From the NCBI RefSeq assembly GCF_015350805.1, contig NZ_JADKSG010000001.1:1970513-2034512 (forward strand): 64,000 bases of DNA, given 5' to 3'. The notes under the pieces were generated by a model. It did no database searches, was not told the origin of the DNA, and was given only the letters and a program-made list of their open reading frames with translations. The position numbers and the translations under genes were made by a program. The number at the start of each line of letters is the position of its first letter. Positions within the stretch are counted from its first letter, which is position 1. This document shows, in pieces, positions 26,344 through 51,618 of this stretch. This stretch comes from Herbiconiux sp. VKM Ac-1786. Lineage in GTDB: Bacteria > Actinomycetota > Actinomycetes > Actinomycetales > Microbacteriaceae.

Positions 26344-26380
26344 CGCCACGACACCACCTCATCTCGACGAAGGAGCCCCG

Positions 26381-28719: not shown

Positions 28720-30239
28720 CCAAACTCAGCACCTCCCTCGACTCCTACGAGATCTGGTTCTTCACCGGCAGCCAGAACCTCTACGGCGAGGAGACGCTCC
28801 GCCAGGTGGCCGAGCAGTCACAGCAGATCGTGGCCACCCTCGACGGCGCCGACGCCATCCCGGTGAAGATCGTCTGGAAGCCCGTGCTGAAGGACTCCGA
28901 GTCCATCCGCCGCGCGGCCCTCGACGCCAACGCCGATGACAAGGTGATCGGCCTCGTCGCGTGGATGCACACCTTCAGCCCCGCCAAGATGTGGATCGCC
29001 GGGCTGGACGCGCTGCAGAAGCCCCTGCTGCACCTGCACACCCAGGCGAACGTCGAGCTGCCCTACGCCGAGATCGACTTCGACTTCATGAACCTGAACC
29101 AGGCCGCGCACGGCGACCGGGAGTTCGGCTACATCCAGACCCGCCTGGGCGTCGCACGCAAGACCGTGGTCGGTCACGCGACGAACCGCCGCGTGCAGGA
29201 CGAGATCGGCCAGTGGGCGCGCGCCGCCGCCGGCTGGCAGGCCGTCAAGACGCTGAAGCTCGCGCGCTTCGGCGACAACATGCGCTTCGTCGCGGTCACC
29301 GAGGGCGACAAGACCGAGGCCGAGCTGCGCTTCGGCGTTCAGGTCAACACCTGGGGCGTCAACGAGCTCGCCGACGCGGTGGCGCTGGCAGAGGCGGACA
29401 CCTCAGCCGTCGACGCGCTCGTCGCCGAGTACGAGGAGCTCTACGACGTCGTGCCCGAGCTGCGTGCGGGCGGGGACCGTCACCAGTCGCTGCGAGACGG
29501 TGCCGCGATCGAGCTCGGCCTGCGCTCGTTCCTCGAGGAGGGCGGCTTCGGCGCGTTCACCACGAGCTTCGAAGACCTCGGCTCGCTGAAGCAGCTGCCC
29601 GGCCTCGCCGTGCAGCGCCTGATGGCCGAGGGCTACGGCTTCGGCGCCGAGGGCGACTGGAAGACCGCCATCCTGGTGCGCGCCGCCAACGTGATGGGTG
29701 CGGGCCTGCCCGGCGGTGCCAGCCTGATGGAGGACTACACCTACGACCTCGTCGACGGTGCCGAGACCATCCTCGGCGCGCACATGCTCGAGGTCAGCCC
29801 GTCGCTGACGACCTCGAAGCCCACGCTCGAGATCCACCCGCTCGGCATCGGCGGCAAGGACGACCCGGTGCGCCTGGTCTTCACCGCCGACCCCGGCCCG
29901 GCCGTCGTGGTCGCGCTCAGCGACATGCGCGACCGCTTCCGCCTCGTGGCGAACGTGGTCGAGGTCGTGCCGCCGCGCGCCCCGCTGCCGAACCTGCCCG
30001 TCGGCCGTGCCGTCTGGCGCCCCGAGCCCTCGTTCGCCGTCTCGGCGGCGGCCTGGCTCACCGCGGGTGCCGCGCACCACACGGTGATGTCGACCGCGGT
30101 CGGGGTCGAGGTCTTCCAGGACTTCGCAACCATCGCCAAGACCGAGCTCCTGCGCATCGACGCCGAGACCACCCTCCGCGGCTTCCAGAACGAGGTCCGC
30201 TGGAACCAGGCCTACTACCGCCTGGCCCAGGGCCTCTAG
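28716..30239 (+). CDS. araA: L-arabinose isomerase
   Basis: The 507-residue isomerase starts at a TTG that overlaps the araD stop (TTGA); no strong ribosome-binding site is present, so translation probably depends on coupling. The N-terminus [32 protein letters not shown], the metal-site region [20 protein letters not shown] and the C-terminal AAHHTVMS are typical. It converts L-arabinose to L-ribulose with a divalent metal. It closes the araBDA operon, followed by a very strong bidirectional terminator. Confidence 0.95.
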
Positions 30240-33237: not shown

Positions 33238-34269
33238 TCAGCGCGAAGCGACTGTGCTGCCCCGCATCACGATCTTCGGGGCGACGTACTCGGTGCCGCC
33301 CTCCAGCGGCCCGCCGTCGATCGCCTCGAAGATGCGCTGGGCGGCACGGCGCCCGAGCTCCTGCAGCGTGCAGTCGATGCTGGTGAGCTCGGGCCGGGAG
33401 TTCACGGCCAGCACCTCCCAGTTGTCGTAGCCGATCACCGAGACGTCCTCGGGCACCGAGCGACCGTAGTCGCGGAGGGTCTCGAGGACGCCTCGGGCGA
33501 TCTGGTCGGAGCCGCAGACGAAGCCGTCGATGTCGGGGTGCCGGTCGAGCAGCACGGCCGCCGCGTCGCGCCCCCACCCCTCGGTCCAGCTGCCGAACAT
33601 CGGCTCGGCGACCGGGGGGACTCCGGCCGCGGCCAGGCCCTCGCGAAAGCCGGCGGCGCGGTCGATCGCCGCGGCGTAGCCGATGTCACCGGTGATGTGC
33701 GCGATGCGCCGCCGCCCGAACGAGAGCACGTGCTCCACGGAGAGCCGCCCGCCGACCACGTTGTCGGGGGTGAGCGACCGGTCGGTCGGGTCGTCCGACG
33801 GAGCGTAGGCGTAGACCACGGGCACCGGCAGGTCGTGCCCGAGGGAGGGCCGCGGGTCGGTCGAGCGCCCCACGACGATGATCCCGTCGACCCGTCGGTT
33901 CAGCAACGCCTTCAGGTGGTAGTTCTCGCGGATGCGGTCACCGCGCGCGTCGCAGAGGAACACGCTGATCTGGCCCGAGCCGAACGCATCCTCTGCCCCC
34001 ATCAGGATGGGCAGCACGAAGCGGCCCTCGAGGTCGCTCGTGAGCAGCCCCACGGTGCCCGTGCGCCCCGCGATCAGGCTCTGCGCGAGGGCGTTGGGGG
34101 TGAACCCGATCTCGGTGGCAGCCGCCATCACCCGCTGCCGGGTGCTCTCGGCGACCTCGGCGCGGCCGTTCACGGCCTTGGACGCCGTGGCGATCGACAC
34201 GCCCGCGAGGCGCGCGACGTCGTTCAGCGTCGCAGCCCGGCGCTGGCCGGATCGCGCAGTGTTGGCCAT
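33238..34269 (-). CDS. LacI-family regulator of the arabinan/glycoprotein operon
   Basis: The 343-residue repressor has the helix-turn-helix ATLNDVARLAGVSIATASKAVN, a hinge with ALAQSLIAGRTGTVGLL, and a sugar domain (LSFGRRRIAHITGDIGYAAA, FVCGSDQIARGVLETL, SVIGYDNWEVLAVNSRPELTSI). It lies divergent from the importer and enzyme operon at 34431-51588. CTTTCGAAAG-type palindromes occur in its own leader and over the operon's transcription start. The ATG at 34269 begins MANTARSG. Its ligand may be an arabino-oligosaccharide or arabinobiose, by context. Confidence 0.87.
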   Translation of the reverse strand: MANTARSGQRRAATLNDVARLAGVSIATASKAVNGRAEVAESTRQRVMAAATEIGFTPNALAQSLIAGRTGTVGLLTSDLEGRFVLPILMGAEDAFGSGQISVFLCDARGDRIRENYHLKALLNRRVDGIIVVGRSTDPRPSLGHDLPVPVVYAYAPSDDPTDRSLTPDNVVGGRLSVEHVLSFGRRRIAHITGDIGYAAAIDRAAGFREGLAAAGVPPVAEPMFGSWTEGWGRDAAAVLLDRHPDIDGFVCGSDQIARGVLETLRDYGRSVPEDVSVIGYDNWEVLAVNSRPELTSIDCTLQELGRRAAQRIFEAIDGGPLEGGTEYVAPKIVMRGSTVASR

Positions 34270-34278
34270 GATTCTCAA

Positions 34279-34288
34279 CTTTCGAAAG
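34279..34288. promoter_or_regulatory. LacI operator at the regulator's own promoter
   Basis: CTTTCGAAAG is a perfect 10-bp palindrome with a central CG, 10 bases upstream of the regulator ATG. Confidence 0.6.
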
Positions 34289-34307
34289 CGTTGTCCCACA
34301 CTAGCTC

Positions 34308-34336
34308 TTGACACAACCCGGATGCTTCGATTTACT
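34308..34336 (+). promoter_or_regulatory. Sigma-A promoter of the arabinan/glycoprotein operon
   Basis: TTGACA (34308-34313) and TTTACT (34331-34336) are separated by exactly 17 bases. This is the closest match to a consensus promoter in the window. Confidence 0.7.
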
Positions 34337-34367
34337 TCTCGAAAGGCCTTTCGAAAACTTTCAGAAA
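34336..34367. promoter_or_regulatory. Array of LacI operators over the transcription start
   Basis: TTCTCGAAAG (34336-34345), CTTTCGAAAA (34348-34357) and a weaker CTTTCAGAAA (34358-34367) lie in tandem. The first two are centred 12 bases apart and create the palindrome CGAAAGGCCTTTCG. They cover the predicted start near 34343. Confidence 0.6.
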
Positions 34368-34430
34368 TGCCCCTGCACACAGCATCGCCGGGCATCCCGG
34401 CTCAATGACGAGCACACGAGGAGAACACAC

Positions 34431-35726
34431 ATGGCACGCATCAAGGGCCGTCTGGGCCGTATCGCGGCGGTGACGGTCGCCGGCGCACTGGCGGTGACCC
34501 TGGCCGCCTGCTCGAGCGGCGGCGGCGGCGGTGCCGCGGCACCCGCCGACATCCCGGCCACCGGCACCGACGACGGCAGCACCCTGACCCTCTGGACCAG
34601 GGCGCCGCTGGAGAAGCAGGCGAAGCTGCTCGTCGAGGCCTACAACGCCTCGCACGAGAACCAGGTCGACCTCACGGTCGTGCCGAACGACGACTACGTC
34701 GCCAAGGTCGGTGCCGCGGCCGGCGCGAACGGTCTCCCCGACCTGTTCGCGGCCGACATCGTCTACGCCCCGAACTGGGCCTCGCAGGGTCTGTGGAAGG
34801 ACATCACCACCCAGATCGACGGCCTCGAGTACAAGGATGACCTGAACAAGGGCCACCTCGCCGCCGGAACCGTCGACGACAAGGAGTACGTCGTCCCGTT
34901 CGTGCTCGACCTGTCGATGCTGTTCTGGAACAAGGAGCTGTTCAAGGAGGCCGGCCTCGACCCCGAGAAGGCCCCCGCGAACCTCGAGGAGTTCGCCGAC
35001 GCGGCGAAGAAGATCCAGGCCCTGAACAAGCCGGGCACCTACGGCACGGCCACCGGCCTGAACTGCGGCGGCTGCCTCGTGTTCACCTGGTTCCCGAGTG
35101 TCTGGGCCGACGGTGACCAGGTGCTGAGCGACGACGGGCTGGAGTCGCTGCTGAACAGCGACACCGCCAAGAAGGTCTACGACACCTGGAAGGACCTCTA
35201 CGACTCCGGAGCGGTGCTGCCCTCCTCGACCGACGAGGCCGGCCCCACCTGGACCGCGGGCTTCACCGAGGGCAAGGTCGGCCTGCAGTTCTACCCGGCC
35301 ACGCTGCTCAGCTCCACCCCGTTCGACGCGGGCGTGTCGGGCATCCCCGGCCCCGAGGGCGGCCAGTCGACCTTCGTCGGCGGTGACGGCATCGGCATCT
35401 CGAAGGACTCCGAGAAGTCGGCGCAGGCCTGGAACTTCCTCTCCTGGCTGACCTCCGAGGACGCCCAGGTCGGCGTGCTGGCGAAGAACGGCGACGCCGT
35501 CGCCCGCGGTGACCTGGCCTCGAACCAGTACTCCGAGGCCGACCCCCGCCTGGTCACCATCAACGAGGTCGCGGCCGAGGGCCAGACCCCGCTGGCGCTG
35601 AACTTCCAGCAGGCCTTCAACGCCCCGTCGAGCCCCTGGCTCACCCTGGTGCGGAACGCCGTGCTCGACGGCGGAGGCTCGGTTGACGCCGACAACGACG
35701 AGATCACCGCGGTGCTCTCGCAGTAG
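34431..35726 (+). CDS. Sugar ABC transporter substrate-binding lipoprotein
   Basis: The 431-residue solute-binding protein has a lipobox TLAAC (Cys27) and a Gly/Ala-rich tether. The fold of SBP_bac_1/MalE type is shown by LTLWTRAPLEKQAKLLVEAY, the hinge region VPFVLDLSMLFWNKELFKEAG, and the C-terminal FNAPSSPWLTLVRNAV. It feeds the two permeases that follow. By gene context it binds arabino-oligosaccharides. CGAGGAGAAC precedes the ATG at 34431. The promoter is strong and covered by LacI-type sites. A hairpin follows the gene. Confidence 0.88.
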   Translation: MARIKGRLGRIAAVTVAGALAVTLAACSSGGGGGAAAPADIPATGTDDGSTLTLWTRAPLEKQAKLLVEAYNASHENQVDLTVVPNDDYVAKVGAAAGANGLPDLFAADIVYAPNWASQGLWKDITTQIDGLEYKDDLNKGHLAAGTVDDKEYVVPFVLDLSMLFWNKELFKEAGLDPEKAPANLEEFADAAKKIQALNKPGTYGTATGLNCGGCLVFTWFPSVWADGDQVLSDDGLESLLNSDTAKKVYDTWKDLYDSGAVLPSSTDEAGPTWTAGFTEGKVGLQFYPATLLSSTPFDAGVSGIPGPEGGQSTFVGGDGIGISKDSEKSAQAWNFLSWLTSEDAQVGVLAKNGDAVARGDLASNQYSEADPRLVTINEVAAEGQTPLALNFQQAFNAPSSPWLTLVRNAVLDGGGSVDADNDEITAVLSQ

Positions 35727-35740
35727 TCGATCCCACCACC

Positions 35741-35772
35741 GGCGGCCCGCCCACCCCACGGGGCGGGCCGCC
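35741..35772 (+). terminator. Hairpin between binding-protein and permease genes
   Basis: GGCGGCCCGCCC and GGGCGGGCCGCC pair perfectly over 12 bases with an 8-base loop and no U-tract. It occupies the same position as in the agl-like and ytf-like operons. Confidence 0.65.
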
Positions 35773-35832
35773 CCACACCCGGTCGCGGGCCCCGAAGCCC
35801 CGGCCTGACACCGAAATACCGAAAGGCGCTCC

Positions 35833-36750
35833 ATGTCGAGCAATGCCATCAAGACCCGCACCGCCCCGGTGCGCCGGCGCAGCGCGCAGCAGCGCGCCGA
35901 GGGCTGGCGGGGCTGGCTGTTCGCCGCCCCGACGGCGGTCATCGTCGTCGTGCTGTTCGTCGTGCCGCTGCTGCTGGTGTTCCAGATGTCGGCCAGCGAC
36001 TGGCCGCTGCTCGGCGGCAACAAGGGCCTGAACGTGCCCGAGAACTTCACCGACGCCGTCGCCAACCGCTTCTTCTGGAACGCCGTCGGCTTCACGCTCC
36101 TCTATACGGTGATCACCACGGTCATCCTGCTGGGGCTCGCCCTCGGCCTCGCCCTGCTGGTGCAGGAGTCGACGCGGTGGAAGGGGTTCCTGCGCACGGC
36201 GATCCTCATCCCCAGTGCGCTCGGCCTCGCATCCGCCTCGCTGCTGTTCTACGTGCTCTACTCGCCGATCGCCGGCCCGTTCGCGGGGCTGATGAACGAC
36301 CTCGGCTTCACCTTCCTCGGCACGCCCGAGGGGGCGCTCTGGTCGACGGTGTTCCTGATCGTCTGGCGCTACGCCGGCTTCTACATGCTGCTGATGCTGG
36401 TGGGCCTGCAGGCGATCCCCGACGAGGTCTACGAGGCCGCGCGCATCGACGGCGCGAGCCGCTGGCAGACCTTCCGCTCGGTGACCGTGCCGCTTTTGAA
36501 GCCCACCATCGCGATGACGATGGTGCTCTGCATCACCGGCTCGCTGCTGGCGTTCGAGCAGTTCTACATCCTCACCAAGGGCGGGCCCGACAACAGCACC
36601 ATCACCGTGGTGCAGCTGATCTACTCCGTCGCCTTCCAGGGCCCCAACAACCTCGGTGTCGCCGCCGCCCTCTCGGTGATCGTGCTGGCGGCGCTCGTGG
36701 TCATCAACATCGCGCAGATCCGCGTGTTCAACGACAAGGAGCCGAAATGA
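35833..36750 (+). CDS. Sugar ABC transporter permease (MalF/UgpA type)
   Basis: The 305-residue permease has six transmembrane helices with a basic N-terminus. The EAA loop is IPDEVYEAARIDGASRWQTF, and GPDNSTITVVQLIYSVAFQG is typical of carbohydrate permease subunit 1. GAAAGGCGC precedes the ATG. It overlaps the next permease gene by ATGA. No ATPase gene is in the operon, as usual for this family in actinobacteria, where a common MsiK-like ATPase serves several importers. Confidence 0.88.
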   Translation: MSSNAIKTRTAPVRRRSAQQRAEGWRGWLFAAPTAVIVVVLFVVPLLLVFQMSASDWPLLGGNKGLNVPENFTDAVANRFFWNAVGFTLLYTVITTVILLGLALGLALLVQESTRWKGFLRTAILIPSALGLASASLLFYVLYSPIAGPFAGLMNDLGFTFLGTPEGALWSTVFLIVWRYAGFYMLLMLVGLQAIPDEVYEAARIDGASRWQTFRSVTVPLLKPTIAMTMVLCITGSLLAFEQFYILTKGGPDNSTITVVQLIYSVAFQGPNNLGVAAALSVIVLAALVVINIAQIRVFNDKEPK

Positions 36751-37679
36751 GCGTCCAGTCGCTTCCGACCAGCAACACGACCAGCAGCAGCACCACCGGC
36801 CCCGCCACGGCCGGTGAGCCCGCCCCGCTGCCCCCGAAGCGCCGACGTCAGGGCAGCCGCATCGGCGGCATCGCCCTGCGCACGCCGTTCTGGGTGCTCT
36901 CCGGCGGCCTCGCGATCGTCTTCCTCTACCCGCTGATCTGGGCCGGGGTGTCGTCGTTCGCGCCGCTCGCCGGCACCAACCAGACCGACGGCTGGGGCAT
37001 CGGCAACTACATCACCCTGGCGAACTACCAGGCCGGCATCTGGACCTACATCGGCAACTCGCTGTTCGTCTCGCTGCTGACCGTGGTGCTGACGCTCGTG
37101 ACGTCGCTGCTCGGCGGCTACGCCTTCGCCCGCTTCCGCTTCCCGGGCAAGAACGCGCTGTTCCTCGCGACCCTCGCCATCCTGATGGTGCCGTACGCGT
37201 CGCTGCTCATCCCGCTCTACGTGCTGCTGAACATGATCGGCCTGTCGAACTCCCTCGTCGGCGTCTCGCTCGTGCTGACCATGCTGCAGCTGCCGTTCTC
37301 GACCTTTCTCATGCGGGTCTCGTTCGAGGCGGTGCCGAAAGAGCTCGACGAGGCCGCGATGGTCGACGGATGCTCGCGCTTCAGTGCTCTCTGGAGGGTG
37401 CTCATCCCCGCAGTGAAGCCGGGCATGATCACCGTCGGTCTGTTCGCCTTCCTGGCGGCGTGGAACGACTTCCTCGCCCCGCTGATCCTCATCAACGACT
37501 CCGACAAGATGACGCTGCCGCTCGCGATCTCCAACCTCCGCGGGCAGGTGCAGGGCGTCGTCGACTACGGCGCCACCGAGGCGGGAGTCGTCGTGCTCGC
37601 CCTGCCGTGCGTCGTGCTGTTCCTCGTTCTCCAACGTCACTACGTGCGCGGCTTCCTGTCCGGCGCCTTCAAAGGATGA
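36747..37679 (+). CDS. Sugar ABC transporter permease (MalG/UgpE type)
   Basis: The 310-residue permease starts with a Ser/Thr-rich and basic cytoplasmic tail (about 45 residues), followed by six helices. The EAA loop is PKELDEAAMVDGCSRFSALW and the C-terminus VRGFLSGAFKG is typical. The start overlaps the first permease stop (ATGA), and its own stop overlaps a possible ATG of the GH127 gene, so importer and intracellular hydrolase are co-translated. Confidence 0.88.
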   Translation: MSVQSLPTSNTTSSSTTGPATAGEPAPLPPKRRRQGSRIGGIALRTPFWVLSGGLAIVFLYPLIWAGVSSFAPLAGTNQTDGWGIGNYITLANYQAGIWTYIGNSLFVSLLTVVLTLVTSLLGGYAFARFRFPGKNALFLATLAILMVPYASLLIPLYVLLNMIGLSNSLVGVSLVLTMLQLPFSTFLMRVSFEAVPKELDEAAMVDGCSRFSALWRVLIPAVKPGMITVGLFAFLAAWNDFLAPLILINDSDKMTLPLAISNLRGQVQGVVDYGATEAGVVVLALPCVVLFLVLQRHYVRGFLSGAFKG

Positions 37680-37681
37680 TC

Positions 37682-39646
37682 ATGACCCTCATCGACCCCG
37701 CGGGCCGCACCATCGCCCGCTCAGACCGTCGCGCCGTCGTGGCGCCCGTGGTGCCGGCCTCCTCGGCCCTCGTGCCTCTCGGCGTGGGAGAGGTGCGCCT
37801 GACGGGCGGCTTCTGGGCCGCGCGTCAGGACGTGAACGCGGCCAACACCCTGCCCCACATCGAGCACTGGCTCGAGCGGGAGGGCTGGCTCGCCAACTTC
37901 GACCTCGCCGCCGCCGGCACCCTGCCCGAGGGGCGCCGGGGCCGCGAGTTCAGCGACTCGGAGGTCTACAAGTACCTGGAGGCCCTCGCCTGGGAGATCG
38001 GCCGCCGCCCCGACGCCGCGCTCGAGACCCGCTTCCGGGCGGTCGTCGACCGCATCGCCGCGGCCCAGGAGGCCGACGGCTACCTGAACACGCGCTTCGG
38101 CCGCCCCGGTCAGGAGCCGCGCTGGTCACAGCTCGAGTGGGGCCACGAGCTCTACTGCGCCGGGCACCTGTTCCAGGCCGCAGTGGCCCGGGCGCGCACC
38201 GCGCCGGGCGCCGACGACGGCCTGCTGGGCATCGCGACGCGGGTCGCCGATCTCGTCTGCGACGTGTTCGGGGAGCAGGGCATCCGCTCGGTCTGCGGCC
38301 ACGCCGAGGTCGAGACCGCCCTGGTCGAGCTCGGCCGCGTCACGGGGGAGCCCCGCTACACCGAGCAGGCCCGCCTGTTCGTGGAGCGCCGCGGGCACCA
38401 GGTGCTGAAGGACATCGAGTACGGCCGCTCCTACTTCCAGGACGACATCCCCGTGCGGGAGGCCGACGTGATGCGCGGCCACGCCGTGCGGGCGAACTAC
38501 CTCGCGAGCGGCGCCGCCGATGTGGCGAGCGAGCTCGGCGACGACGAGCTGCAGCAGGCGCTCCGGCGCCAGTGGCTGAACACCATCGCCCGCCGCACCT
38601 ACGTCACCGGCGGCCAGGGCTCGCACCACCAGGACGAGGGCTTCGGCGAGGACTTCGAGCTGCCCAGCGACCGGGCCTACTCCGAGACCTGCGCGGGCAT
38701 CGCCTCGATCCAGTTCAGCTGGCGGATGCTCCTGGCGGAGCCCGATCCCGCGTACGCCGACCTGATCGAGCGGACGCTCTACAACGTGCTCGCCACGTCG
38801 CCGTCGGAGGACGGCCGGGCGTTCTACTACGCCAACACCCTGCAGCAGCGGGTGCCCGGGGCGGTGGCGGACGTCGAGGAGGCGTCGCTGCGCGCATCCG
38901 CCTCTCTGCGCGCGCCCTGGTTCGAGGTGTCGTGCTGCCCACCGAACATCGCCCGCACGCTGGCGAGCCTCGACAGCTACGTGGCGACCCGGGACGCGCA
39001 CGGCGTGCAGCTGCACCAGTACGCGCCGGCGGTCATCCGCACCCGGCTCGAGGACGGCGAGGAGATCGCGCTGACCGTGCAGACGGAGTACCCGGCCACC
39101 GGGCGCGTCACCGTGACGATCGACGCCGACGCGTCGCGCACCTGGACCCTCTCGCTGCGCGTGCCGGCCTGGGCCGAGGGCGCCGAGCTCTCCATCGACC
39201 CGGCCGACGGCACCACCGATCGCGAGCAGCGCACCGTGCCGCCCGGCACCGCCGAGGTCACGCGGGCCTTCCGGGCCGGCGACACGATCACGCTCCAGCT
39301 GCCGATGGCGCCGCGCTTCGTGCACCCCGATCCGCGGATCGACGGCGTGCGGGGATCGGTCGCGGTCGCCCGCGGCCCCGAGGTGCTCGCGCTCGAGTCG
39401 GTCGACCTGCCCGCCGGGATCGACGACGTGGCCGACGTGGCGCTCGACGCCTCGATCGCGCCGGTCGTGCGCGACGGCGAGGTGCTCGTCACGCTGCGGC
39501 CCCGCCGCGTGCCCGAGGCGCCGTTCCCGTACACGCCCGCCCCCGGCGCCGAGCTCGGCGACCCGGTCGCGGTGCGGCTGGTGCCCTACCACGACTGGGC
39601 CGAGCGCGGCCCCTCCACGATGCGCATCTGGCTGCCGACCACGTAG
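37682..39646 (+). CDS. GH127 beta-L-arabinofuranosidase (cytoplasmic)
   Basis: The 654-residue enzyme lacks a signal peptide. It has an (alpha/alpha)6 barrel followed by beta domains, as in HypBA1 of Bifidobacterium. Catalytic markers are Glu319 (DEGFGEDFELP), Glu335 and Cys337 (YSETCAG), and Cys418-Cys419 (EVSCCPPN), which fit the zinc site and Cys nucleophile known in GH127. It would release L-arabinose from beta-L-arabinofuranosyl-arabinose inside the cell. AAAGG lies six bases before the ATG at 37682; an in-frame ATG at 37676 overlaps the permease stop and cannot be excluded. The released arabinose would feed araBDA. Confidence 0.88.
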   Translation: MTLIDPAGRTIARSDRRAVVAPVVPASSALVPLGVGEVRLTGGFWAARQDVNAANTLPHIEHWLEREGWLANFDLAAAGTLPEGRRGREFSDSEVYKYLEALAWEIGRRPDAALETRFRAVVDRIAAAQEADGYLNTRFGRPGQEPRWSQLEWGHELYCAGHLFQAAVARARTAPGADDGLLGIATRVADLVCDVFGEQGIRSVCGHAEVETALVELGRVTGEPRYTEQARLFVERRGHQVLKDIEYGRSYFQDDIPVREADVMRGHAVRANYLASGAADVASELGDDELQQALRRQWLNTIARRTYVTGGQGSHHQDEGFGEDFELPSDRAYSETCAGIASIQFSWRMLLAEPDPAYADLIERTLYNVLATSPSEDGRAFYYANTLQQRVPGAVADVEEASLRASASLRAPWFEVSCCPPNIARTLASLDSYVATRDAHGVQLHQYAPAVIRTRLEDGEEIALTVQTEYPATGRVTVTIDADASRTWTLSLRVPAWAEGAELSIDPADGTTDREQRTVPPGTAEVTRAFRAGDTITLQLPMAPRFVHPDPRIDGVRGSVAVARGPEVLALESVDLPAGIDDVADVALDASIAPVVRDGEVLVTLRPRRVPEAPFPYTPAPGAELGDPVAVRLVPYHDWAERGPSTMRIWLPTT

Positions 39647-39657
39647 CCGACGACCCC

Positions 39658-39687
39658 GCCGGGCGCGGTTCCGACACCGCGCCCGGC
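39658..39687 (+). terminator. Hairpin between GH127 and the secreted glycosidase
   Basis: GCCGGGCGCGGT and ACCGCGCCCGGC pair perfectly over 12 bases with a 6-base loop. There is no U-tract. It is followed by a 9-base tandem repeat (GAGCACCAC) at 39691-39715. Confidence 0.6.
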
Positions 39688-39743
39688 CCTGCAGCACCAC
39701 GAGCACCACGAGCACCATCTGATCACTCGACGATGAGGAGACC

Positions 39744-42700
39744 ATGACCATGTCCAGACCCCGCCCCCGGTCGGCATCCGCCGCCCGCACGACCGTCGCC
39801 GGGCTGGTGACGGCCGCGGTCATCACCGGCGCCCTGGCCTCGCCCGCCGCCGCCGCGCCGAACGCCGATCTCGGCTATCCGGTGTTCACCGGCTCGGCGA
39901 ACCCGGTGCCGGACACCGGCGTCGCCTACGACTCCCGCAACGAGCTCGGCGCCATCTTCGACGCCGACGTCGCGGCCGGTGCGGGCAGCTCGCCCGACTC
40001 CGATTTCTGGTTCGACCGGATGCTCGTGCGCACCGGCACCGACGGCAGCTTCGGTGACGAGAACCAGTGGATGTTCTCCCGCGGCAAGTCCGTGTTCATG
40101 AAGACCCACGACCCCTCGGTGCTCGGCTTCGGTGGCGACGTCGCCTACTGGGAGTCGATCGACGGACGCGGCGCCTACACGATCACGGTCACGGTCGACG
40201 GCCAGCCGCTCACCCTCACCGAGGCGACCGACCAGCGCAAGCAGACCCCGAGCTACTGGCGGAGCGTGTTCACCACCTCCGACGCCGAGCTCACCGTGGT
40301 CGAGACGAAGTACATCACCGACGGTAACGTCGCCGTGACCGGCGTCGAGCTGCGCTCGAGCGGGGGCGCCAAGAGCGTCACGCTGGGTGCCTCCTCGCCG
40401 TACACCACCGTCACTGAGGGCGACGAGCTGACCGGAGTGGTGAAGGCGCTGAACGACGTCACCACCGTCTACCCGCGATTCTCGGGCGACGGCATGACGG
40501 TCGCCGACGGCGCCCTCACCGGTGCGGTCGAGGTGCCGGCCGGCGGCAGCGCCACCACGAAGGTGCAGCTCGGCTTCGTCACCCCCGAGACCGAGACCTC
40601 GCGCACCGAGTACGACGCGTACCGGGCCGCCGACGCGGCCTCGGCCTACACGACCCACGTCACGGCCTACAACGCGTGGTGGGCCGACAACGTGCCCTAC
40701 CTCGACACCCCCGAGGACAACATCGACAAGACGCTCTACTACCGCTGGTGGCTGATGCGGTTCAACTTCCTCGACGCCGACGCACCCGGCAACACGTTCC
40801 AGTTCCCCACCGCGGTCGAAGGCTCGCTGGGCTACAACAACGCCATCGTGCTCACCTCGGGCATGTTCATCGACGACTTGAAGTACTTCCGCGACCCGGC
40901 CTACGCCTACGGCACCTGGGTCTCGGCCGGCGAGGCTGCGAAGAGCTACAAGTTCGTCGACAACCCCGGCGACCCCGCCAACTGGAGCAACAGCTACACC
41001 CAGTACATCTCCGACGCGGCCTGGCGCTCCTACCAGCTGCACGGCGGGCCGACGCCCATCGCCGAGAGCCTCGGCACCTACGCCGCCAACGACGTCGAGG
41101 GGCTGATCGACGCCTACGACACCGACGACAGCGGGCTGATCGACTACAACTGGGCCGCGATGACGGGCAACGACGCCGACGCGGTGTCGTTCGACGAGCG
41201 CCCGGGCGCCTCGATGGACCGCACCGAGAACGCCTACCTCTACGCCAACGCGCTCGCCGCGGCCTCGGCCTTCGACGCCGCCGGCGACACCGCGAAGGCG
41301 GAGGAGATGCGCCAGTTCGCCGCCGACATCAAGTCCAAGGTGCTCGAGCTGCTCTGGGACGACGACGCGAACCTGTTCAAGCACCGCTTCACGAGCGACG
41401 GCCAGCTGGCGAAGTGGAAGGAGACGAACAACTTCTACCCGTTCTCGGTGGGACTCGTGCCCAAGAAGGGCGACGCCGATCACGCCGACGACTACGAGGA
41501 CGCCCTGCGCCTGTTCGCCGACGACGGTCAGTACCCGATCTTCCCGTTCTTCACCGCGAACCAGGCCGACAAGGCCGAGGCCGCGGCGGAGGGCTTCCCC
41601 GGCAGCAACAACTTCTCGGTCATCAACTCGACCGTGCTGTTCCGGCTGTTCTCCTCGGTGCTCCGCGACTACGACACCGACGCGATCACCCCGGAGTCGT
41701 ACAAGAAGCTGCTCTACTGGAACGCCTGGGCGCACTACCAGAACGGCGGCGACAACCGTCTGCCCGACCAGAACGAGTTCTGGGCCGGCGGCTCGGCCGA
41801 CCCCGCGAAGATCGACTACCGCTCGTGGATCCACCACACCATCCTGGGTGCGACGAACTTCACGATGATCGAGGACACGATGGGGCTGCGCTCCCGGGAC
41901 GACGCCAAGATCGAGCTCGACCCGATCGACATCGGCTGGGACCACTTCACCGCGAACAACATCCGGTTCCGCGACCACGACCTCACCATCACCTGGGACG
42001 CCCCCGGCGGTGAGCGCCACTACGGCGACGACGTGCCAGAGGGCTACTCCGTCTTCCTCGACGGGAAGCTCGCCTTCACGGTCGACTCGCTCTCGCACGT
42101 GGTCTACGACCCGGCCACCGGTGACGTGACCGTCGATGACGGCACGGCCGTGCTGAGCTCGGTCGCCTCGTCGGTCAAGCAGGCCAACGAGGTCGCGTAC
42201 ACCGCGGACGACCGGGTGACCGACATCTTCGCCAAGGCCGGCAAGGAGATCGACGCGGCCAGCGCCTCGTCCGAGAACCTCGCCGCAGGCGCCGACGTGA
42301 CGGCCTCGTTCGAGGCGGACGGCCGCCCGGCCGCCGCCGCGGTGAACGGCACGACGATCAACGAGCCCTTCTGGGGCACGGCCGGGTCGCCGAACGCGAG
42401 TGACACGCTGACCGTCGACCTCGGTGCGGCGAAGACCGTCGACGACGTGCGGCTGTACTTCTACCAGAGCTCCAGCACCGCCACGGTGCAGGGCTACTCC
42501 GAACCGCAGAACTACCTCGTCGAGTACGACGACGGCGGCACCTGGAAGCCGGTCGCTTCCCAGGCGCGCACCCCGCAGTACCCGACGGCGAACTACAACC
42601 GGGTGCAGTTCCCGGCGGTCACGACCGACAAGCTCCGCGTCACCGTGGTGCACGCACCGGGGATGAAGACGGGACTGAAGGAGGTCGAGGCCTTCGCCAC

Positions 42701-44870: not shown

Positions 44871-47800
44871 CCCGGCCCGCGAGCATGACGACCACGCAGA
44901 TCCGGCCCGCCGCCCGCACCTCGGTGCGGCGGGCCGCAGCCCTCCTGACCGTGGGCGCCGTGCTCGCGGGCTCCGCCGTCCTGGCCGGCGCGGCGACCGC
45001 CGCGCGGGCCGAGACGGTCAACCCGATCCTCTCCGACGGCTCGTACTACTCCGCCGACCCGGCCACCCTGGTCGACGGTGACACGCTCTACGTCTTCGCT
45101 GGCCGCGACGAGGCGGGCCCGACCCAGAACGACTTCGTGATGAACGAGTGGCAGACGTTCTCGACGACCGACGTCGACTCCGGTGTGTGGCAGCACACCC
45201 CCGACGTGATGCGACCGGAGGAGGCCTTCGCCTGGGCGACGCCCGGCCGGGCCTACGCCGGCCAGGCCGTCACAGGCGCCGACGGACGGTACTACTGGTA
45301 CGTGCCGGTGGCCCAGCGCGACCCCGGCAGCGCCGACGCCTTCGCCATCGGCGTCGCCGTCGCCGACAGCCCCGCGGGACCGTGGAGCGACGCCCTCGGC
45401 GCCCCGCTGATCTCGCAGAAGATCCTGGGCAACGACATCCAGAACATCGACCCGACGATCCTCACCGACGACGACGGGCGGGTGTACCTCTACTGGGGCA
45501 CCTTCGGCCAGATGCGCGCGGTCGAGCTCGACCCCGGGATGACCTCGCTGATCGGCGAGCCGATCACGGTCACCGGCACCGACGGCTTCTTCGAGGCGCC
45601 CTGGATCTTCAAGCGCGGCGAGACCTACTACCTCGCCTACGCGGCGAACGACGTGGGCCCGAACTGCACCGAGGCCGTGTACCACGCGTGCATCTCCTAT
45701 GCCACGAGCCCCGGGCCGATGGGTCCGTGGAGCTACGCCGGCCGGGTGCTCGCCCCGGTCTCCTCGACCACCAGCCATCCGGCGATCACCGAGTTCGACG
45801 GCCGGTGGTACATCGTCTACCACACGGCCGACGCCGTGGGCGGAAACCACTTCCGCCGCTCGGTCGCCATCGACGAGCTGAACTGGGACGACTCGGTCAG
45901 CCCCGCCCGCATCGAGGAGGTCGTGCAGACCCCTGTGAAGCAGATCGACCGCACCCCGCGGGCGAACATCGCGCCGTGGGCCACGGCCTCCGCGTCGAAC
46001 CAGCCCGTGCCCGCGCAGTACTGGATCCGGGCCCTGAACGACGAGCTCGTGCGCCCCAACCCGCTGCCGCCGGACATGTGGGGCAACTACTCCGGCGACC
46101 GTCCCGAATCGGAGTGGCTGCAGTACGACTGGGCCGAGCCCCGCCGCATCGACTCGAGCACCGTCGACTTCTGGCGCGACTCCGAGCCGGGCTCCGGCGA
46201 CGGGGTCTCGAACCCGGCCTCCTGGCTGCTGCAGTACCGCGACGCCTCCGGCGACTGGATCGACGTCGCCGACCCGAGCGGCTACGGCACCTCGACCGAC
46301 GAGCCGCAGAGCGTGAGCTTCGCCCCGGTCACCACCACGGGCATCCGGCTCGCCCTGCAGGCGTCACCGGGCGACGGCACCTTCTCGGGCCTCGCCGTCG
46401 AGGAGTGGGAGGTGGGGGCCGCGCAGCCCACCGGCTACCGGCCGGTCTCGGTCACGACCGCCGCCGGCGCGCTGCCCGAGCTGCCCGCGACCGTGACGCT
46501 CGACCGGGCCGACGGCAGCACGTCGACGACGCCCGTGCTCTGGGACGACATCGACCCCGTGGACGTCTCACGCCCCGGCACCTTCTCGGTGCAGGGCTTC
46601 GCCGAGGGCTACGCCGCCGGGGAGGTGACCGCCGCGATCACGGTCACGGGCGACACCGTGCCCGGTGAGGACACCATCGCACCCGAGGTCGTGCTCGCTC
46701 CGACGAGCGCGGTTCCGGCGTCGGGCTGGTTCCGCACGGCGACCACCGTGCGCGCCTCGGCCACCGACGACCGCGACCTCCGCCTGCGTGTCGAGGTGCG
46801 GGTCGACGGCGGCGCCTGGACGGCCACCGACAACACGCGCATCGTCGACGTGCCCGTCTCCGACGACGGCGACACCCTGGTCGAGGCGAGGGCGACGGAT
46901 GCGGCGGGCAACGTCTCGGCCGAGACCGCGCTCACCGTGCGGCTCGACCGCGCGGCGCCGGTGGTCACGCCGGCGGTCGAGCTGTCCGCCCGCCGGGTCT
47001 CGCTCAGCGCGAGCGACGCCGGATCGGGGGTGGCCTCGCTCGAGGTCTCCCTCGGCGACCGCGCCTCGTGGGCGCCGTACACCGAGCCCGTGGTGGCCGA
47101 CGCCGCCCGCACCGAGGTGCACTACCGGGCGACGGATGCCGCGGGCAACGTCTCGGCGACGCAGTCGGTGACCATCCCGGCCGCCGACAGCACCCCGCTC
47201 GAGGGCGACATCGCCGGCCTCGCCACCGCCACCGCCTCGTACTCGTCACCGTGGACCCAGGTCTCCTGGGTCAACGACGGCGACGCCTCGGCCGAGGCGC
47301 CGGGCTGGGGCACCTGGCCCGAGGTGGGGGAGCAGTGGGTGCAGCTGGAGTGGCCGCGGCTGGTCGACGTCGATCGTGCCGACGTGAGCTTCTTCACCGA
47401 CCAGGACGAGTCGGCGGGCGCCGGGGTGATCGTGCCGCGCAGCTGGCGGGTGCAGTACTTCGACATCGCCGCGAACGACTGGCGCGACGTCGAGGCGGCG
47501 GGGGAGTACGGCCGGGATCGGGTCGCCCCCAACAGCATCGCGTTCGATCGCGTGAGCACCGACCGGCTGCGCGTCGTGATGCAGGCGTGGGGCGCGGAGC
47601 CGACGCAGGGGTCGTCCGGCCTCCGCGAGGTGCAGGTGTTCGCCGCGGCGCCGGTGTCGACGGCGGTCGACCGGATCGCGGGCGACGATCGGTACGAGGT
47701 GTCGGCGGCGACGTCGGCGGCCGGGTTCCCGTCCGGGGCTTCGACCGTGTATGTCGCGTCGGGTCAGGCGTTCCCGGATGCCCTCTCGGCAGCCCCGGCG

Positions 47801-48562
47801 GCGACCATCGCCGGTGCGCCCGTGCTGCTCACCCTCGGTGACCGCATCCCGGCACCCGTGCTGGCCGAACTGAAGCGGCTGGACCCGTCGAAGATCGTCA
47901 TCGTCGGCGGCACGAACGCCGTCGGTGCAGCGGTCGAGAAGGAGCTCGAGGGGTTGGCCGATGTCACCCGCGTCGGTGGTGCCGACCGGTTCGCCGTGTC
48001 GCTGAGCATCGCCGAGACGGCGTTCCCCGACGGGGCAGACCGTGTCGTGCTCGCCACGGGCCGCACCTTCCCCGACGCGCTCTCCGCGGGCGCAGCGGTC
48101 GACGGGAAGGCCCCGGTCATCCTGATCGACGGCGCCGCGACGTCCCTCGACAGCGCCACCAAGGCGCTGCTCGCGAAGCTGGGCGCGAAGGACGTGGTGA
48201 TCGTCGGCGGCACCGACGCGATCACCGCAGCCCTCGCGGAGGACGTGGCGAAGGTCGCCGCGGTCACCCGCCTGGCCGGTGAGGACCGGTTCGCGTCATC
48301 CAGGGCGATCAACGAGTTCTTCTTCGAGAAGGCCGACCGGGTCGTGCTGGCCACGGGAGCGAACTTCCCCGACGCCCTCTCGGGCTCGGCGTTCGCCCCG
48401 GCCGTGGATGCGCCGCTGTTCACGGTGCAGACCGACTGCATCCCGGCCGAGACCCTGACGCAGATCACCGCGCTCGGCGCCACGCAGGTCACCCTGCTCG
48501 GCGGCACGACGGTGCTCTCCCCGGCCGTCGAGTCGCTGACCGCCTGCCCGGCCGGCCGATGA
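44867..48562 (+). CDS. Secreted wall-anchored GH43 glycosidase
   Basis: The 1231-residue product has a signal peptide (to about residue 48). A five-bladed propeller GH43 domain (about 50-365) follows, with likely catalytic Asp64 (YSADPATLV), Asp195 (NIDPTILTDDDG) and Glu243 (FEAPWIFKRGETYYLAY). Then come a discoidin-like module (364-520), a Big_4-like domain (523-598), tandem OmpL47/Ig-like repeats with ATDAAGNVSA (600-775), another discoidin-like module (784-930) and three CWB2 repeats (934-1231). GH43 enzymes are usually alpha-L-arabinofuranosidases, arabinanases, xylosidases or exo-galactanases. The GTG overlaps the upstream TGA; an ATG six codons in is an alternative. Confidence 0.85.
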   Translation: MTRPASMTTTQIRPAARTSVRRAAALLTVGAVLAGSAVLAGAATAARAETVNPILSDGSYYSADPATLVDGDTLYVFAGRDEAGPTQNDFVMNEWQTFSTTDVDSGVWQHTPDVMRPEEAFAWATPGRAYAGQAVTGADGRYYWYVPVAQRDPGSADAFAIGVAVADSPAGPWSDALGAPLISQKILGNDIQNIDPTILTDDDGRVYLYWGTFGQMRAVELDPGMTSLIGEPITVTGTDGFFEAPWIFKRGETYYLAYAANDVGPNCTEAVYHACISYATSPGPMGPWSYAGRVLAPVSSTTSHPAITEFDGRWYIVYHTADAVGGNHFRRSVAIDELNWDDSVSPARIEEVVQTPVKQIDRTPRANIAPWATASASNQPVPAQYWIRALNDELVRPNPLPPDMWGNYSGDRPESEWLQYDWAEPRRIDSSTVDFWRDSEPGSGDGVSNPASWLLQYRDASGDWIDVADPSGYGTSTDEPQSVSFAPVTTTGIRLALQASPGDGTFSGLAVEEWEVGAAQPTGYRPVSVTTAAGALPELPATVTLDRADGSTSTTPVLWDDIDPVDVSRPGTFSVQGFAEGYAAGEVTAAITVTGDTVPGEDTIAPEVVLAPTSAVPASGWFRTATTVRASATDDRDLRLRVEVRVDGGAWTATDNTRIVDVPVSDDGDTLVEARATDAAGNVSAETALTVRLDRAAPVVTPAVELSARRVSLSASDAGSGVASLEVSLGDRASWAPYTEPVVADAARTEVHYRATDAAGNVSATQSVTIPAADSTPLEGDIAGLATATASYSSPWTQVSWVNDGDASAEAPGWGTWPEVGEQWVQLEWPRLVDVDRADVSFFTDQDESAGAGVIVPRSWRVQYFDIAANDWRDVEAAGEYGRDRVAPNSIAFDRVSTDRLRVVMQAWGAEPTQGSSGLREVQVFAAAPVSTAVDRIAGDDRYEVSAATSAAGFPSGASTVYVASGQAFPDALSAAPAATIAGAPVLLTLGDRIPAPVLAELKRLDPSKIVIVGGTNAVGAAVEKELEGLADVTRVGGADRFAVSLSIAETAFPDGADRVVLATGRTFPDALSAGAAVDGKAPVILIDGAATSLDSATKALLAKLGAKDVVIVGGTDAITAALAEDVAKVAAVTRLAGEDRFASSRAINEFFFEKADRVVLATGANFPDALSGSAFAPAVDAPLFTVQTDCIPAETLTQITALGATQVTLLGGTTVLSPAVESLTACPAGR
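47693..47910 (+). repeat. CWB2-coding segment nearly identical to 44004-44221
   Basis: This is the second copy of the 218-base pair of segments; the two lie 3689 bases apart in the same orientation. Confidence 0.8.
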
Positions 48563-51500
48563 GGACCCTCGCCGGGCTCGTGCTCGCCGTCGCGCTGGTG
48601 GGCGCGAACACGGTGGGCGCGAGCCCGGCCGAGGCCGGCCCGGTCGAAGCGGCCGCGGCGGCCGCAGTCACGGCGACCGACGAGCTCTGGACGCCGCTGA
48701 CCGAGGTCGGGCCGGGCGATCCGCTCGTCGAGCCCGAGGGGGCGGCGCCGTTCCGCCTCGACGTGGGCGGCCTGTCCGCTCTGCTGCAGGGCAGCCGCGA
48801 CCGACGCGCGGCCGCGGCGCCCACCGAGCTCGAACTGCCCGACCCGAACGGGCGGCTCGTGCGCTTCGCGGTGCAGCCGCTGACGGTGATGGAGCCGGAG
48901 CTGGCGGCCGCGCATCCGGAGATCGTCGCCGTCGCCGGCCGCGGCATCGACGACCCGGGCCTGAGCGTGCGGGCCGACCTCTCGCCGCTCGGCCTGCACG
49001 CCTCGGTGCGCAGCGCCGACGGATCGACCACGGCCTGGTACCTCGACCCCGCGCTGCGCGGCGACGCGTCGACCTCGGTGTCGTACCCGGCGGGCGCCCT
49101 GCGCGACGACCGGTCGTCGCTCGCCGAGCCCGAAGCCCCCCAGGCGGTCGAAGCCCCCCAGGCGGTCGAACCCGACGCGATCGCGCCGGAGACCGACGCC
49201 GCCCCCGGCGCCGACGTCCCGCTCCGCACCGTGCGCGTCGCCTTCGCCAGCGACCCGAGCTTCGCCGCGTTCTACGGCAGCGATGCCGTGCTGGCCGCGA
49301 AGGTCTCGATCCTCACGCGCATCGGCGGGGTGGTCAACGACGACCTCGGCGTGCACCTGACCGTCGCCGACGGCACCGACCGGCTGAACTTCGACACCGT
49401 CGAGAAGGCCGAGGCCGCCGGCTACACCGCCCCGGCCCTCGCCACCTGCGGCCAGGCGAGCCTCGATCAGAACAGCGCCGCGATCGAGCGCCTGCTCGGG
49501 GTCGACGGCTACGACGTCGGCCATCTGCTGCTCGGGGTCGCCGGTGGTGGCCTGGCGGGCTACGCCGAGGTCGGGCTGCCCTTCGTCAAGGGCGGCGGAT
49601 GCACGGGCGACCCGAACCCGGTCGGCGACGGCTTCGCCATCGACTATGTGGCGCACGAGCTCGGCCACCAGTTCGGCGGCAGCCACACCTTCAACGCCTG
49701 CGGCGGCAGCAGCGGCGCGACCGCGGTGGAGCCCGGCTCCGGCTCGACGATCATGGCCTACGCCGGCATCTGCGGCGCGAACGACCTGCAGCCGCACAGC
49801 GACCCCTACTTCTCCCAGGCCAGCATCGCCGAGATCCAGCGCACGCTCGCGCGCCTGCCCGCCACGGCCTCCGGCAACCGCGCGCCGGTCGTCACCGCAC
49901 CGGCCGACCGCGAGCTGCCGCTGCAGACCCCCTTCACCCTCGTCGCCGACGGCTCCGACCCCGACGGCGACCCGGTGGGCTACCTCTGGGAGCAGAACGA
50001 CGTCGGCGACCCCGACCGCGCCCTCTCCGACGGCGCCAAGACGGCCGGGCCGCTCGTGCGCGTCTTCGGCCGCTACGCCGCCGTCGGGTCCGACGCGACC
50101 CGGCAGTACTCCTCGCCGGGCGAGAACCTGCTCGGCGCCGATCCGGGCCGCACGATCCCCGACCTCGAGCAGATCCTCGCGGGCGACACCACCGCCGAGA
50201 CCGGCACCTGCGACCCCGCGCTGACGGGCCTCGCCGCGCTCGAGTGCGCCTCGGAGTCGCTGCCGACCGCGGACTACCTCGACGACGGCGCCCTCGACTT
50301 CCGGGTGACCGCGCGCGATCAGAACCCGGCCGGCGGCGGCGTCTCGCACGACGACGTGCGGCTCACCCTCGCCCGCGACGCCGGCCCGTTCCTCGTGACG
50401 AGCCAGGGCGACGCCACCGAGGTGCTGCGCGGGGGAGCGGCGACCGACGTCACCTGGGCCGTCAACGGCACCGACCGCGCCGGCCTCGCCCCGACCGTGC
50501 GCATCCGGCTGTCGACCGACGGCGGCCGCCGCTTCGACACGGTGCTCGCCGAGGAGACCGCGAACGACGGCAGCGCGACGGTGACGGTGCCGAACATCGC
50601 GAGCACCGCGGTGCGCATCCGCGTCGAGGCCGTCGACAACTACTTCTTCGACCTCTCCGACGCCGACGTGACCATCGCCGCCGTGCCCCGCGTCGACCCC
50701 GCCGTCGACCGCATCGGCGGGTCCGACCGCTTCGCCGTCTCGGCCGCCGTCTCCCGCGAGTCCTTCCCCGACGGTGCCGAGACCGTCTACGTGGCCTCGG
50801 GAGCGGTCTTCCCCGACGCCCTCTCGGCGGCTCCGGCGGCGGCGCGGGCGGGAGCGCCGGTGCTGCTCACCCGTCCCGAGGGGCTGCCGGATGCGGTGGC
50901 CGCCGAGATCGCGCGCCTCGACCCCGCGCGGGTCGTCGTCGTGGGCGGCCCGCTCAGCGTGGGAACGGTCGTCGCCGAGCAGCTCGCCGCCACGGGCGCG
51001 GAGGTGACCCGAATCGGCGGACCCGACCGCTTCGCCGTCTCGCGGAGCGTCGCCGAGGCGGCGTTCCCCGACGGCGCCTCGACCGCCGTGCTGGCCACCG
51101 GCACCGACTTCCCCGACGCCCTGTCGGCCGGAGCCGCCGTCGCCGGGCAGAGCCCCGTGCTGCTCGTCGACGGCCGCGCGGGGTCGCTCGACGCCGCCAC
51201 CCGGGCCGTGCTCGGGCGCCTCGGCGTCACCCGCCTCGTCGTCGTGGGCGGCGAGCTCTCGGTCTCCGCAGCGCTCGCGGCCGACGCGAGCGGCCTCGCG
51301 CCCGTCACCCGGCTCGGCGGCACCGATCGCTACGCCACGTCGATCGCCGTGACCGAGCACTTCTTCGCCGCGGCCGACCGGGTGCTGCTCGCCACCGGAC
51401 GCACCTTCCCCGACGCCCTCTCGGGCTCGCCGCTCGGCCTCCCCGTGCTCGTCGTGCCCCCGGACTGCCTGCCCGGCGCGACCCGCTCCGCGATCGGTGC

Positions 51501-51588
51501 CCTCGGCGCGACCCGCATCACCCTGCTCGGCGGGGAGGCCGGTCTCGGCGCCGGTGTGGAGCGCCTGGACGTCTGCCCCTCACCCTGA
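48559..51588 (+). CDS. Secreted wall-anchored metzincin metalloprotease
   Basis: The 1009-residue product has a signal peptide (about 1-26), a pro-region (about 30-220) and a reprolysin-like M12B-type catalytic domain. The zinc motif is HELGHQFGGSH (His366, His370, His376; Glu367) with a Met-turn at STIMAYAGIC (Met399). A Fibronectin/Ig-like region follows, then three CWB2 repeats (about 712-1009). It begins with an ATG overlapping the GH43 stop (ATGA), so it is the last gene of the operon. A protease in a glycosidase operon suggests a glycoprotein substrate. The linker contains an exact duplicate of EAPQAV. Confidence 0.87.
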   Translation: MRTLAGLVLAVALVGANTVGASPAEAGPVEAAAAAAVTATDELWTPLTEVGPGDPLVEPEGAAPFRLDVGGLSALLQGSRDRRAAAAPTELELPDPNGRLVRFAVQPLTVMEPELAAAHPEIVAVAGRGIDDPGLSVRADLSPLGLHASVRSADGSTTAWYLDPALRGDASTSVSYPAGALRDDRSSLAEPEAPQAVEAPQAVEPDAIAPETDAAPGADVPLRTVRVAFASDPSFAAFYGSDAVLAAKVSILTRIGGVVNDDLGVHLTVADGTDRLNFDTVEKAEAAGYTAPALATCGQASLDQNSAAIERLLGVDGYDVGHLLLGVAGGGLAGYAEVGLPFVKGGGCTGDPNPVGDGFAIDYVAHELGHQFGGSHTFNACGGSSGATAVEPGSGSTIMAYAGICGANDLQPHSDPYFSQASIAEIQRTLARLPATASGNRAPVVTAPADRELPLQTPFTLVADGSDPDGDPVGYLWEQNDVGDPDRALSDGAKTAGPLVRVFGRYAAVGSDATRQYSSPGENLLGADPGRTIPDLEQILAGDTTAETGTCDPALTGLAALECASESLPTADYLDDGALDFRVTARDQNPAGGGVSHDDVRLTLARDAGPFLVTSQGDATEVLRGGAATDVTWAVNGTDRAGLAPTVRIRLSTDGGRRFDTVLAEETANDGSATVTVPNIASTAVRIRVEAVDNYFFDLSDADVTIAAVPRVDPAVDRIGGSDRFAVSAAVSRESFPDGAETVYVASGAVFPDALSAAPAAARAGAPVLLTRPEGLPDAVAAEIARLDPARVVVVGGPLSVGTVVAEQLAATGAEVTRIGGPDRFAVSRSVAEAAFPDGASTAVLATGTDFPDALSAGAAVAGQSPVLLVDGRAGSLDAATRAVLGRLGVTRLVVVGGELSVSAALAADASGLAPVTRLGGTDRYATSIAVTEHFFAAADRVLLATGRTFPDALSGSPLGLPVLVVPPDCLPGATRSAIGALGATRITLLGGEAGLGAGVERLDVCPSP
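49132..49170 (+). repeat. 18-bp perfect tandem repeat in the protease pro-region
   Basis: GAAGCCCCCCAGGCGGTC occurs twice in tandem, followed by GAA, coding EAPQAV-EAPQAV-E. It is in frame and likely to vary in copy number between strains. Confidence 0.9.
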
Positions 51589-51618
51589 CGCTCCCGCCTC
51601 CCGCGCCGTGCCATGGGC

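Follow-up and report, generated by a model that had tools for sequence, protein, structure and literature searches.

The closest described counterpart of the locus analyzed here is the hyp cluster of Bifidobacterium longum JCM 1217 (BLLJ_0208-0213), in which an importer, HypBA1, HypBA2, and HypAA are encoded in that order (PMC7263609) and which is predicted to be controlled by the LacI-family regulator BauR (PMC5928203). In Xanthomonas euvesicatoria, the xehypBA2-xehypAA operon encodes a GH121 and a GH43 enzyme that act on oligosaccharides of plant hydroxyproline-rich glycoproteins (HRGPs), and a prolyl-oligopeptidase pseudogene lies beside hypAA (PMC6085000). The authors of that study propose that the enzyme of this gene may degrade HRGP, and HRGPs that have been deglycosylated are expected to become accessible to proteases (PMC6085000). 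Extensin cleavage has been reported for Svx, a secreted zinc peptidase of Pectobacterium atrosepticum (PMC13164431), and an in silico account of the Latescibacteria assigns GH127 to extensins and peptidases to wall glycoproteins (PMC4454575). Here we describe a locus at positions 33238-51588 of a 64,000-nucleotide stretch of DNA from Herbiconiux sp. VKM Ac-1786 (the window, contig positions 1970513-2034512; features lie on its forward strand unless stated otherwise). It encodes a LacI regulator, a sugar importer, and a cytoplasmic GH127, followed by three CWB2-anchored proteins, namely a GH121, a GH43, and a metzincin protease. We consider it likely that this locus is the form that the hyp system takes in Herbiconiux, directed at the hydroxyproline (Hyp)-linked arabinooligosaccharides of HRGPs such as extensin, with a protease added.

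Given the Xanthomonas case, finding a peptidase next to hypAA has some precedent; the new part of an otherwise known hyp system is the CWB2-anchored metzincin protease. We found no description of a GH121/GH43/metzincin arrangement in the open literature, most subscription papers lying outside that search.

The sugar core of the locus

A Pfam scan of the window recovered, in the same succession and positions, every gene that a preliminary description of this DNA had named. That description had also likened the GH127 and a large (alpha/alpha)6 glycosidase to the HypBA1/HypBA2 pair, a likeness that has been borne out: the large enzyme is itself a GH121, and the likeness to the B. longum cluster extends to the binding protein and the gene order.

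The GH121 (39744-44870, 1708 aa), a HypBA2-like β-L-arabinobiosidase predicted to reside at the cell surface, carries MGH1-like_GH, F5/8C, and Big_4 domains and three CWB2 repeats. A profile search assigns it to GH121, an arabinoside family. Its residues 35-835 match the HypBA2 structure 6m5a with an E-value of 2.5e-236, and E359, D477, and E678 align, in a register counted by hand, with E383, D515, and E713 of HypBA2, which are reported to be essential (PMC7263609). A GH142 identity was rejected because the corresponding match (5mqr) reaches only 1.3e-15. On the NCBIfam HypBA2 model NF041578, the protein scores 1376 bits, under the cut-off of 3200, with model positions 15-1368 of 1709 covered; by sequence, the large glycosidase is thus a GH121, yet not a HypBA2 equivalog by NCBI's rule.

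The GH127 (37676-39646), a HypBA1-like β-L-arabinofuranosidase, comprises a PF07944 domain (E 1.7e-83) with middle and C accessory domains, retains the ETC and SCCPPN motifs of the Cys/Glu zinc site, and gives the only PF07944 match in the 3.89-Mb genome. Its PDB matches include 4qjy (E 5.4e-102) and HypBA1 itself (3wkw, E 1.6e-87). The importer consists of a sugar-binding protein (34431-35726; SBP_bac_8) and two BPD_transp_1 permeases, A (35833-36750) and B (36747-37679). The binding protein appears to be of the β-arabinobiose type, as it matches 6lce with an E-value of 9.6e-126 and 210 of 400 aligned residues identical (52.5%), the next PDB match reaching only 4.6e-25; 6LCE is the β-arabinobiose-binding protein of B. 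longum (PMC8106489). The surface GH43 (44867-48562, 1231 aa; PF04616 E 3.8e-37; PDB 3qed E 1.2e-51), HypAA-like by position, combines its catalytic domain with F5/8C, Big_4, and OmpL47-type domains and three CWB2 repeats. Residues D64, D195, and E243 of this protein, which we take to be catalytic, are present.

The regulator gene (33238-34269, reverse strand; Pfam LacI and Peripla_BP_3) is BauR-like by position, and its counterparts in related Microbacteriaceae clusters are 67-83% identical. Translation of the regulator most likely begins with the ATG at 34269 rather than at 34395: homologues align with the longer open reading frame (ORF) only from about residues 36-53 onward, and the promoter and operator elements at 34308-34353 (see below) would fall inside it. 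The genes had been said to follow one another mostly with stop/start overlaps. This holds for four junctions with 4-bp overlaps (permease A/permease B, permease B/GH127 with the GH127 start taken as the ATG at 37676, GH121/GH43, and GH43/protease) and fails for two, where gaps of 106 bp (binding protein to permease A) and 97 bp (GH127 to GH121) each contain a 12-bp GC hairpin found by folding (35741-35772 and 39658-39687, respectively).

Compared through PDB entries, the B. longum and Herbiconiux systems share the same families in the same order, the GH121 triad, the GH127 motifs, and a LacI-family regulator, predicted in the case of B. longum. In both, the GH127 lacks a signal peptide (by inspection here) and the GH121 and GH43 are extracellular. 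They differ in that the Herbiconiux enzymes carry CWB2 wall anchors in place of the C-terminal membrane region of B. longum, and in the added protease gene. The X. euvesicatoria enzymes are described as having no anchoring region, its GH127 as extracellular, and the organism as not using L-arabinose, as far as the account in PMC6085000 goes. Other actinomycete hyp clusters share the LacI regulator, importer, GH127, GH121, often the GH43, and a conserved operator; CWB2 and a metzincin homologue were not found in those searched.

Because the gene order is the same as that of BLLJ_0208-0213, the core is almost certainly, on sequence grounds, the known system for Hyp-linked arabinooligosaccharides and not an arabinan locus. 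Arabinan, arabinogalactan-protein, or rhamnogalacturonan-II is an improbable target in place of Hyp-arabinosides. Several of these polymers are known substrates of GH43 and PF07944 enzymes, and the GH127 scores 348 bits on the NCBIfam aceric acid hydrolase model, under its cut-off of 950. Against this, the characterized GH121 and β-arabinobiose-binding protein are described as specific to Hyp-linked β-arabinosides and β-Ara2, and Pfam detects no endo-arabinanase, galactanase, or pectin enzyme among the cluster genes. Arabinan degradation, one of the two functions originally suggested, is therefore not favored, nor is a rhamnogalacturonan-II locus, since the GH121 and the type of binding protein point to Hyp-linked β-arabinosides.

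A putative ADAM-like protease at the end of the locus

The last gene of the locus (48559-51588) encodes a surface metzincin of 1009 aa with a reprolysin-like domain (Reprolysin_4 E 7.5e-22). Its signal peptide, identified by eye, is followed by a propeptide-like region without cysteine, the catalytic domain, Ig-like domains, and three CWB2 repeats. The metzincin motif HELGHQFGGSH occupies residues 366-376 and the Met-turn STIMAY residues 396-401 (M399). The zinc-binding histidines, the glutamate, and the methionine are invariant in all 31 aligned rows (31 of the 48 homologues to hand), and the motif glycine is replaced by alanine or serine in some homologues. The third histidine, at position 376, argues against a gluzincin. 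Svx, by description, is in contrast a gluzincin with the motif HEXXHX(8,28)E and an acyltransferase-like domain (PMC13164431, PMC9266454).

Since a structure search with a 683-residue model of the protease returned mostly Ig-like folds, the propeptide and catalytic part (residues 30-440) were modeled alone. The resulting model has a mean pLDDT of 73.7, with parts below 50, among them residues 348-388. Its closest folds are the ADAM17 zymogen, profragilysin, and snake venom proteases, all weak matches with a query TM of at most 0.47 and a target TM of up to 0.62, and a profile search of the protease also reaches ADAM17 (E ~0.01). Taken together, sequence and model suggest an ADAM-like zinc protease with a propeptide, of metzincin or M12B-like type.

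The solved structures that rank highest belong to the sheddase ADAM17, in some cases as the zymogen, and the GH121, GH43, and protease carry the same kind of wall anchor, which raises the question of whether the protease processes or sheds the wall-bound GH121, GH43, or other CWB2 proteins and not a plant protein. We regard this as unlikely. The fold match is weak (query TM 0.46-0.47 and rmsd 11.2 and 8.9 for the top two) and silent on substrate, and in Herbiconiux sp. nzgw90 the GH121 and GH43 are also CWB2-anchored, yet the protease adjoins another gene.

CWB2 anchoring of all the exo-enzymes had been singled out as distinctive. Among the clusters compared by BLAST with the CWB2 region of the window, it was indeed seen only in Herbiconiux (nzgw90 and G253, with the GH121 of G252 lacking it), but it is an ordinary anchor in its own genome, where 96 CWB2 repeats were counted; at three repeats each, this would correspond to ~32 proteins, which were not counted singly. 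These 96 repeats rule out CWB2 anchoring as the special feature of the locus.

Distribution of the cluster and the protease

Counting the present genome, GH121 was found in 4 of 16 genomes of the genus, 5 of 249 of the family, 22 of 394 of the class, and 24 of 396 of the order, and protease homologues in 2 of 16, 1 of 249, and 1 of 396 genomes of the genus, family, and order, respectively. The family, class, and order sets are overlapping samples. All candidates were scored in the genus searches; in the class and order searches for GH121 and the family and order searches for the protease, at most 4 or 2 first-look candidates were scored per genome, so that misses are possible. Full-length GH121 matches in the class and order form two tiers, one above ~900 bits and one at ~500-565 bits. 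Of the other actinomycete genomes compared, many though not all group the importer, GH127, and GH121, often with the GH43.

Comparison with a near relative (G251) delimits a block of 11.9 kb (39664-51612) that contains exactly the GH121, GH43, and protease genes and is absent from the same site in that genome. The DNA match ends at 39663 (94.5%) and restarts at 51613 (96.8%), so that in G251 the LacI, importer, and GH127 genes are followed directly by a CBS gene, whose product is 99% identical to the CBS-domain enzyme here. In a further genome (G011), the entire cluster is missing from the corresponding site. The G251 stretch (L121, 3070-9469) has a scavenger-like layout, without GH121, GH43, or protease at the site, and if the proposed roles are correct, this relative offers a natural comparison of producer and scavenger.

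The protease occurs once in its own genome, and its sole close relative (64%) is encoded in nzgw90. There, an ORF for a GH146-like protein with CWB2 anchoring (up to 1607 aa) precedes the protease gene by ~76 bp. This protein matches PDB 8k7y, a β-1,3-L-arabinofuranosidase entry, with an E-value of 1e-148. The GH146 enzyme Bll3HypBA1 acts on β-1,3-arabinosides of arabinogalactan-proteins and arabinan (PMC10850190). The CWB2-anchored GH121-GH43 pair of nzgw90 lies on a separate contig, and the 15 kb read beyond the GH43 contain no protease. Both protease-bearing Herbiconiux genomes fall within the 4 of 16 that have GH121, a weak association (chance 0.05). A tree built from 29 rows separates the two Herbiconiux proteases from the rest by a branch of length 0.77 with full support; a two-cysteine loop, common to at least 90% of the aligned rows, is missing from the pair.

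A contig scan with two short peptide patterns yielded 47 protease loci in named genomes, mainly Nocardioides, Micromonospora, and Pseudonocardiaceae. Seven of these records (L044, L049, L059, L060, L061, L065, and L069), six from Pseudonocardiaceae and one titled Rhodococcus rhodnii, hold two protease copies within a few kb. Among the GH121 clusters, 12 stretches (L133, L141, L142, L143, L145, L147-L151, L188, and L189) carry nearby GH146-like genes that are 27-38% identical to the enzyme of nzgw90. Two genomes belonging to a single genus have a pyrroline-5-carboxylate reductase-like gene after GH121-GH43 (L177:17225-18841 and L178:17931-19163), which might relate to glycoprotein proline or be due to chance.

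Regulatory elements

In the interval between the LacI and importer genes, we observed by eye a promoter-like TTGACA-N17-TTTACT element (34308-34336), which was not among the results of consensus promoter and terminator scans; these reported no promoter or terminator at all. It is followed by an operator-like palindrome, CGAAAGGCCTTTCG (34340-34353), present in a single copy in the window. The pattern CGAAANNNNTTTCG has one match in the 64 kb, against a mean of 0.00 across 100 shuffles. Of 38 loci supplied for comparison, one (L185) has no divergent LacI/binding-protein region and was left out; among the remaining 37, many of them close kin, the operator is present exactly in 17 and with at most one mismatch in 35, the one-mismatch match in L186 being a poor palindrome.

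Additional operator copies accompany the 5′ ends of other genes, lying at or close to that of GH121 in L135, L136, and L151, that of a GH146-like gene in L188, and that of a large gene in both L020 and L022. The large genes bearing the operator in L020 and L022 are candidates for further arabinoside enzymes. Large proteins beside GH121 clusters are encoded at L020:3487-6777, L022:10526-13972, and L189:2844-7649, those of L020 and L189 matching DUF5695 in Pfam. Because no second operator copy precedes GH121 within the window, the whole gene set probably depends on the single operator at 34340-34353, and the hairpins in the two intergenic gaps may tune its expression. A match to the operator pattern also occurs at a Kibdelosporangium protease locus (L060:21285-21298), several kb from the protease, and may be a chance event.

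Possible role of the protease

From protein families, active-site residues, gene order, operator conservation, and the presence or absence of the block relative to one relative, we infer substrates, repression, co-expression, and a protease target, and we take the sugar route from characterized homologues. On this route, the wall-held GH43 would remove the terminal α-1,3-arabinose, converting Ara4-Hyp to Ara3-Hyp, and the wall-held GH121 would then free β-1,2-arabinobiose, which the ABC importer would take up and the cytoplasmic GH127 split. Neighboring araBDA genes would pass the arabinose into central metabolism, and LacI, bound at the single operator, would repress the set. The ADAM-like zinc protease, a lineage-specific addition, would cut the backbone bared by the two glycosidases and thereby open more substrate. 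Such a target is plausible, if somewhat short of an even chance. The protease appears to be linked to the locus by its 4-bp overlap with the GH43 gene, by the shared block absent from G251, and by its arabinosidase setting in nzgw90.

A broader proposal is that the locus forms a single surface machine, in which two wall-anchored glycosidases strip Hyp arabinosides and a co-produced wall-anchored ADAM-like protease cuts the backbone. In this proposal, the protease would be specialized in Herbiconiux for arabinoside-bearing proteins and would act as a recruitable module, placed with GH43/GH121 here and with the GH146-like enzyme in nzgw90, with the peptidase next to hypAA in Xanthomonas as an independent parallel case. 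We advance this as possible, though rather doubtful. If it is true, the locus would supply the enzymes needed to break extensin down fully, along with an intact counterpart to the Xanthomonas peptidase pseudogene. Combining deglycosylation with proteolysis at the cell's wall, from one locus, it would also illustrate how actinobacteria associated with plants breach the HRGP barrier.

It is also possible, though not probable, that the protease has no link to arabinosylated proteins and arrived behind the CWB2-encoding genes as a passenger, being a surface protease of general function. Its rare, lineage-specific occurrence in the genus, family, and order samples would fit such an origin, as would the wider family in Nocardioides, Micromonospora, Kibdelosporangium, and others, where no arabinosidase neighbor was found, and the common CWB2-coding 3′ ends could have aided recombination. 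A passenger does not readily explain, however, why the protease stands directly behind a surface arabinoside hydrolase in each of two different Herbiconiux settings, nor why it overlaps the GH43 gene by 4 bp and shares with GH121 and GH43 a single block that G251 lacks.

Several observations weigh against the reading of the locus as a hyp system with a functionally coupled protease. No protease homologue was found in 58 GH121 stretches from 48 other genomes (blastp on ORFs and tblastn), several of which stop soon after GH121 at contig ends (e.g. L031, L187, and L194), nor anywhere in the GH121-bearing Herbiconiux genomes G252 and G253. The hyp pathway thus does not need the protease, and over the stretches compared the protease is rejected as a conserved member of GH121 loci. 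In G252, GH121 precedes the same CBS gene without GH43 or protease there, so that GH121, GH43, and protease are not always one unit. No arabinosidase was seen in the flanks, some of them short, of the other 46 protease homologues, which were searched by tblastn with the window genes and the nzgw90 GH146. The operator was not found at the nzgw90 protease locus, and a shared regulon for that protease was rejected for this reason. Because the 97-bp gap with its hairpin lies before GH121, readthrough into that gene is presumptive. The α-1,3 specificity of the GH43 (HypAA type) is suggested by its hypAA gene position only. Finally, utilization of the hydroxyproline itself was considered and rejected: no Pro_racemase/hydroxyproline epimerase match was found in the genome, and 1 of 16 Herbiconiux genomes has a Pro_racemase match.

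Two broader scans of the GH121 stretches concerned peptidases in general. A search for HExxHxxGxxH in ORFs of at least 250 aa gave one match, which falls within the GH121 gene of L022 but in an ORF that is out of frame with it; this strict motif would miss relatives with alanine or serine for glycine. Pfam detected no peptidase near the clusters in 20 ORFs picked by eye, most of the 269 unlabeled ORFs lying outside that scan.

Neighboring genes

Adjoining the locus are araB-, araD-, and araA-like genes (26381-30239), named from their FGGY, Aldolase_II, and AraA Pfam matches and presumed to serve L-arabinose catabolism. They are part of a longer region (18863-30239) that also encodes a sugar-binding protein, an ABC ATPase and permease, and two LacI regulators and that probably comprises L-arabinose import and catabolism genes. 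Near the left end of the window, two further CWB2-rich proteins, of 433 and 335 aa, are encoded at 1159-4225.

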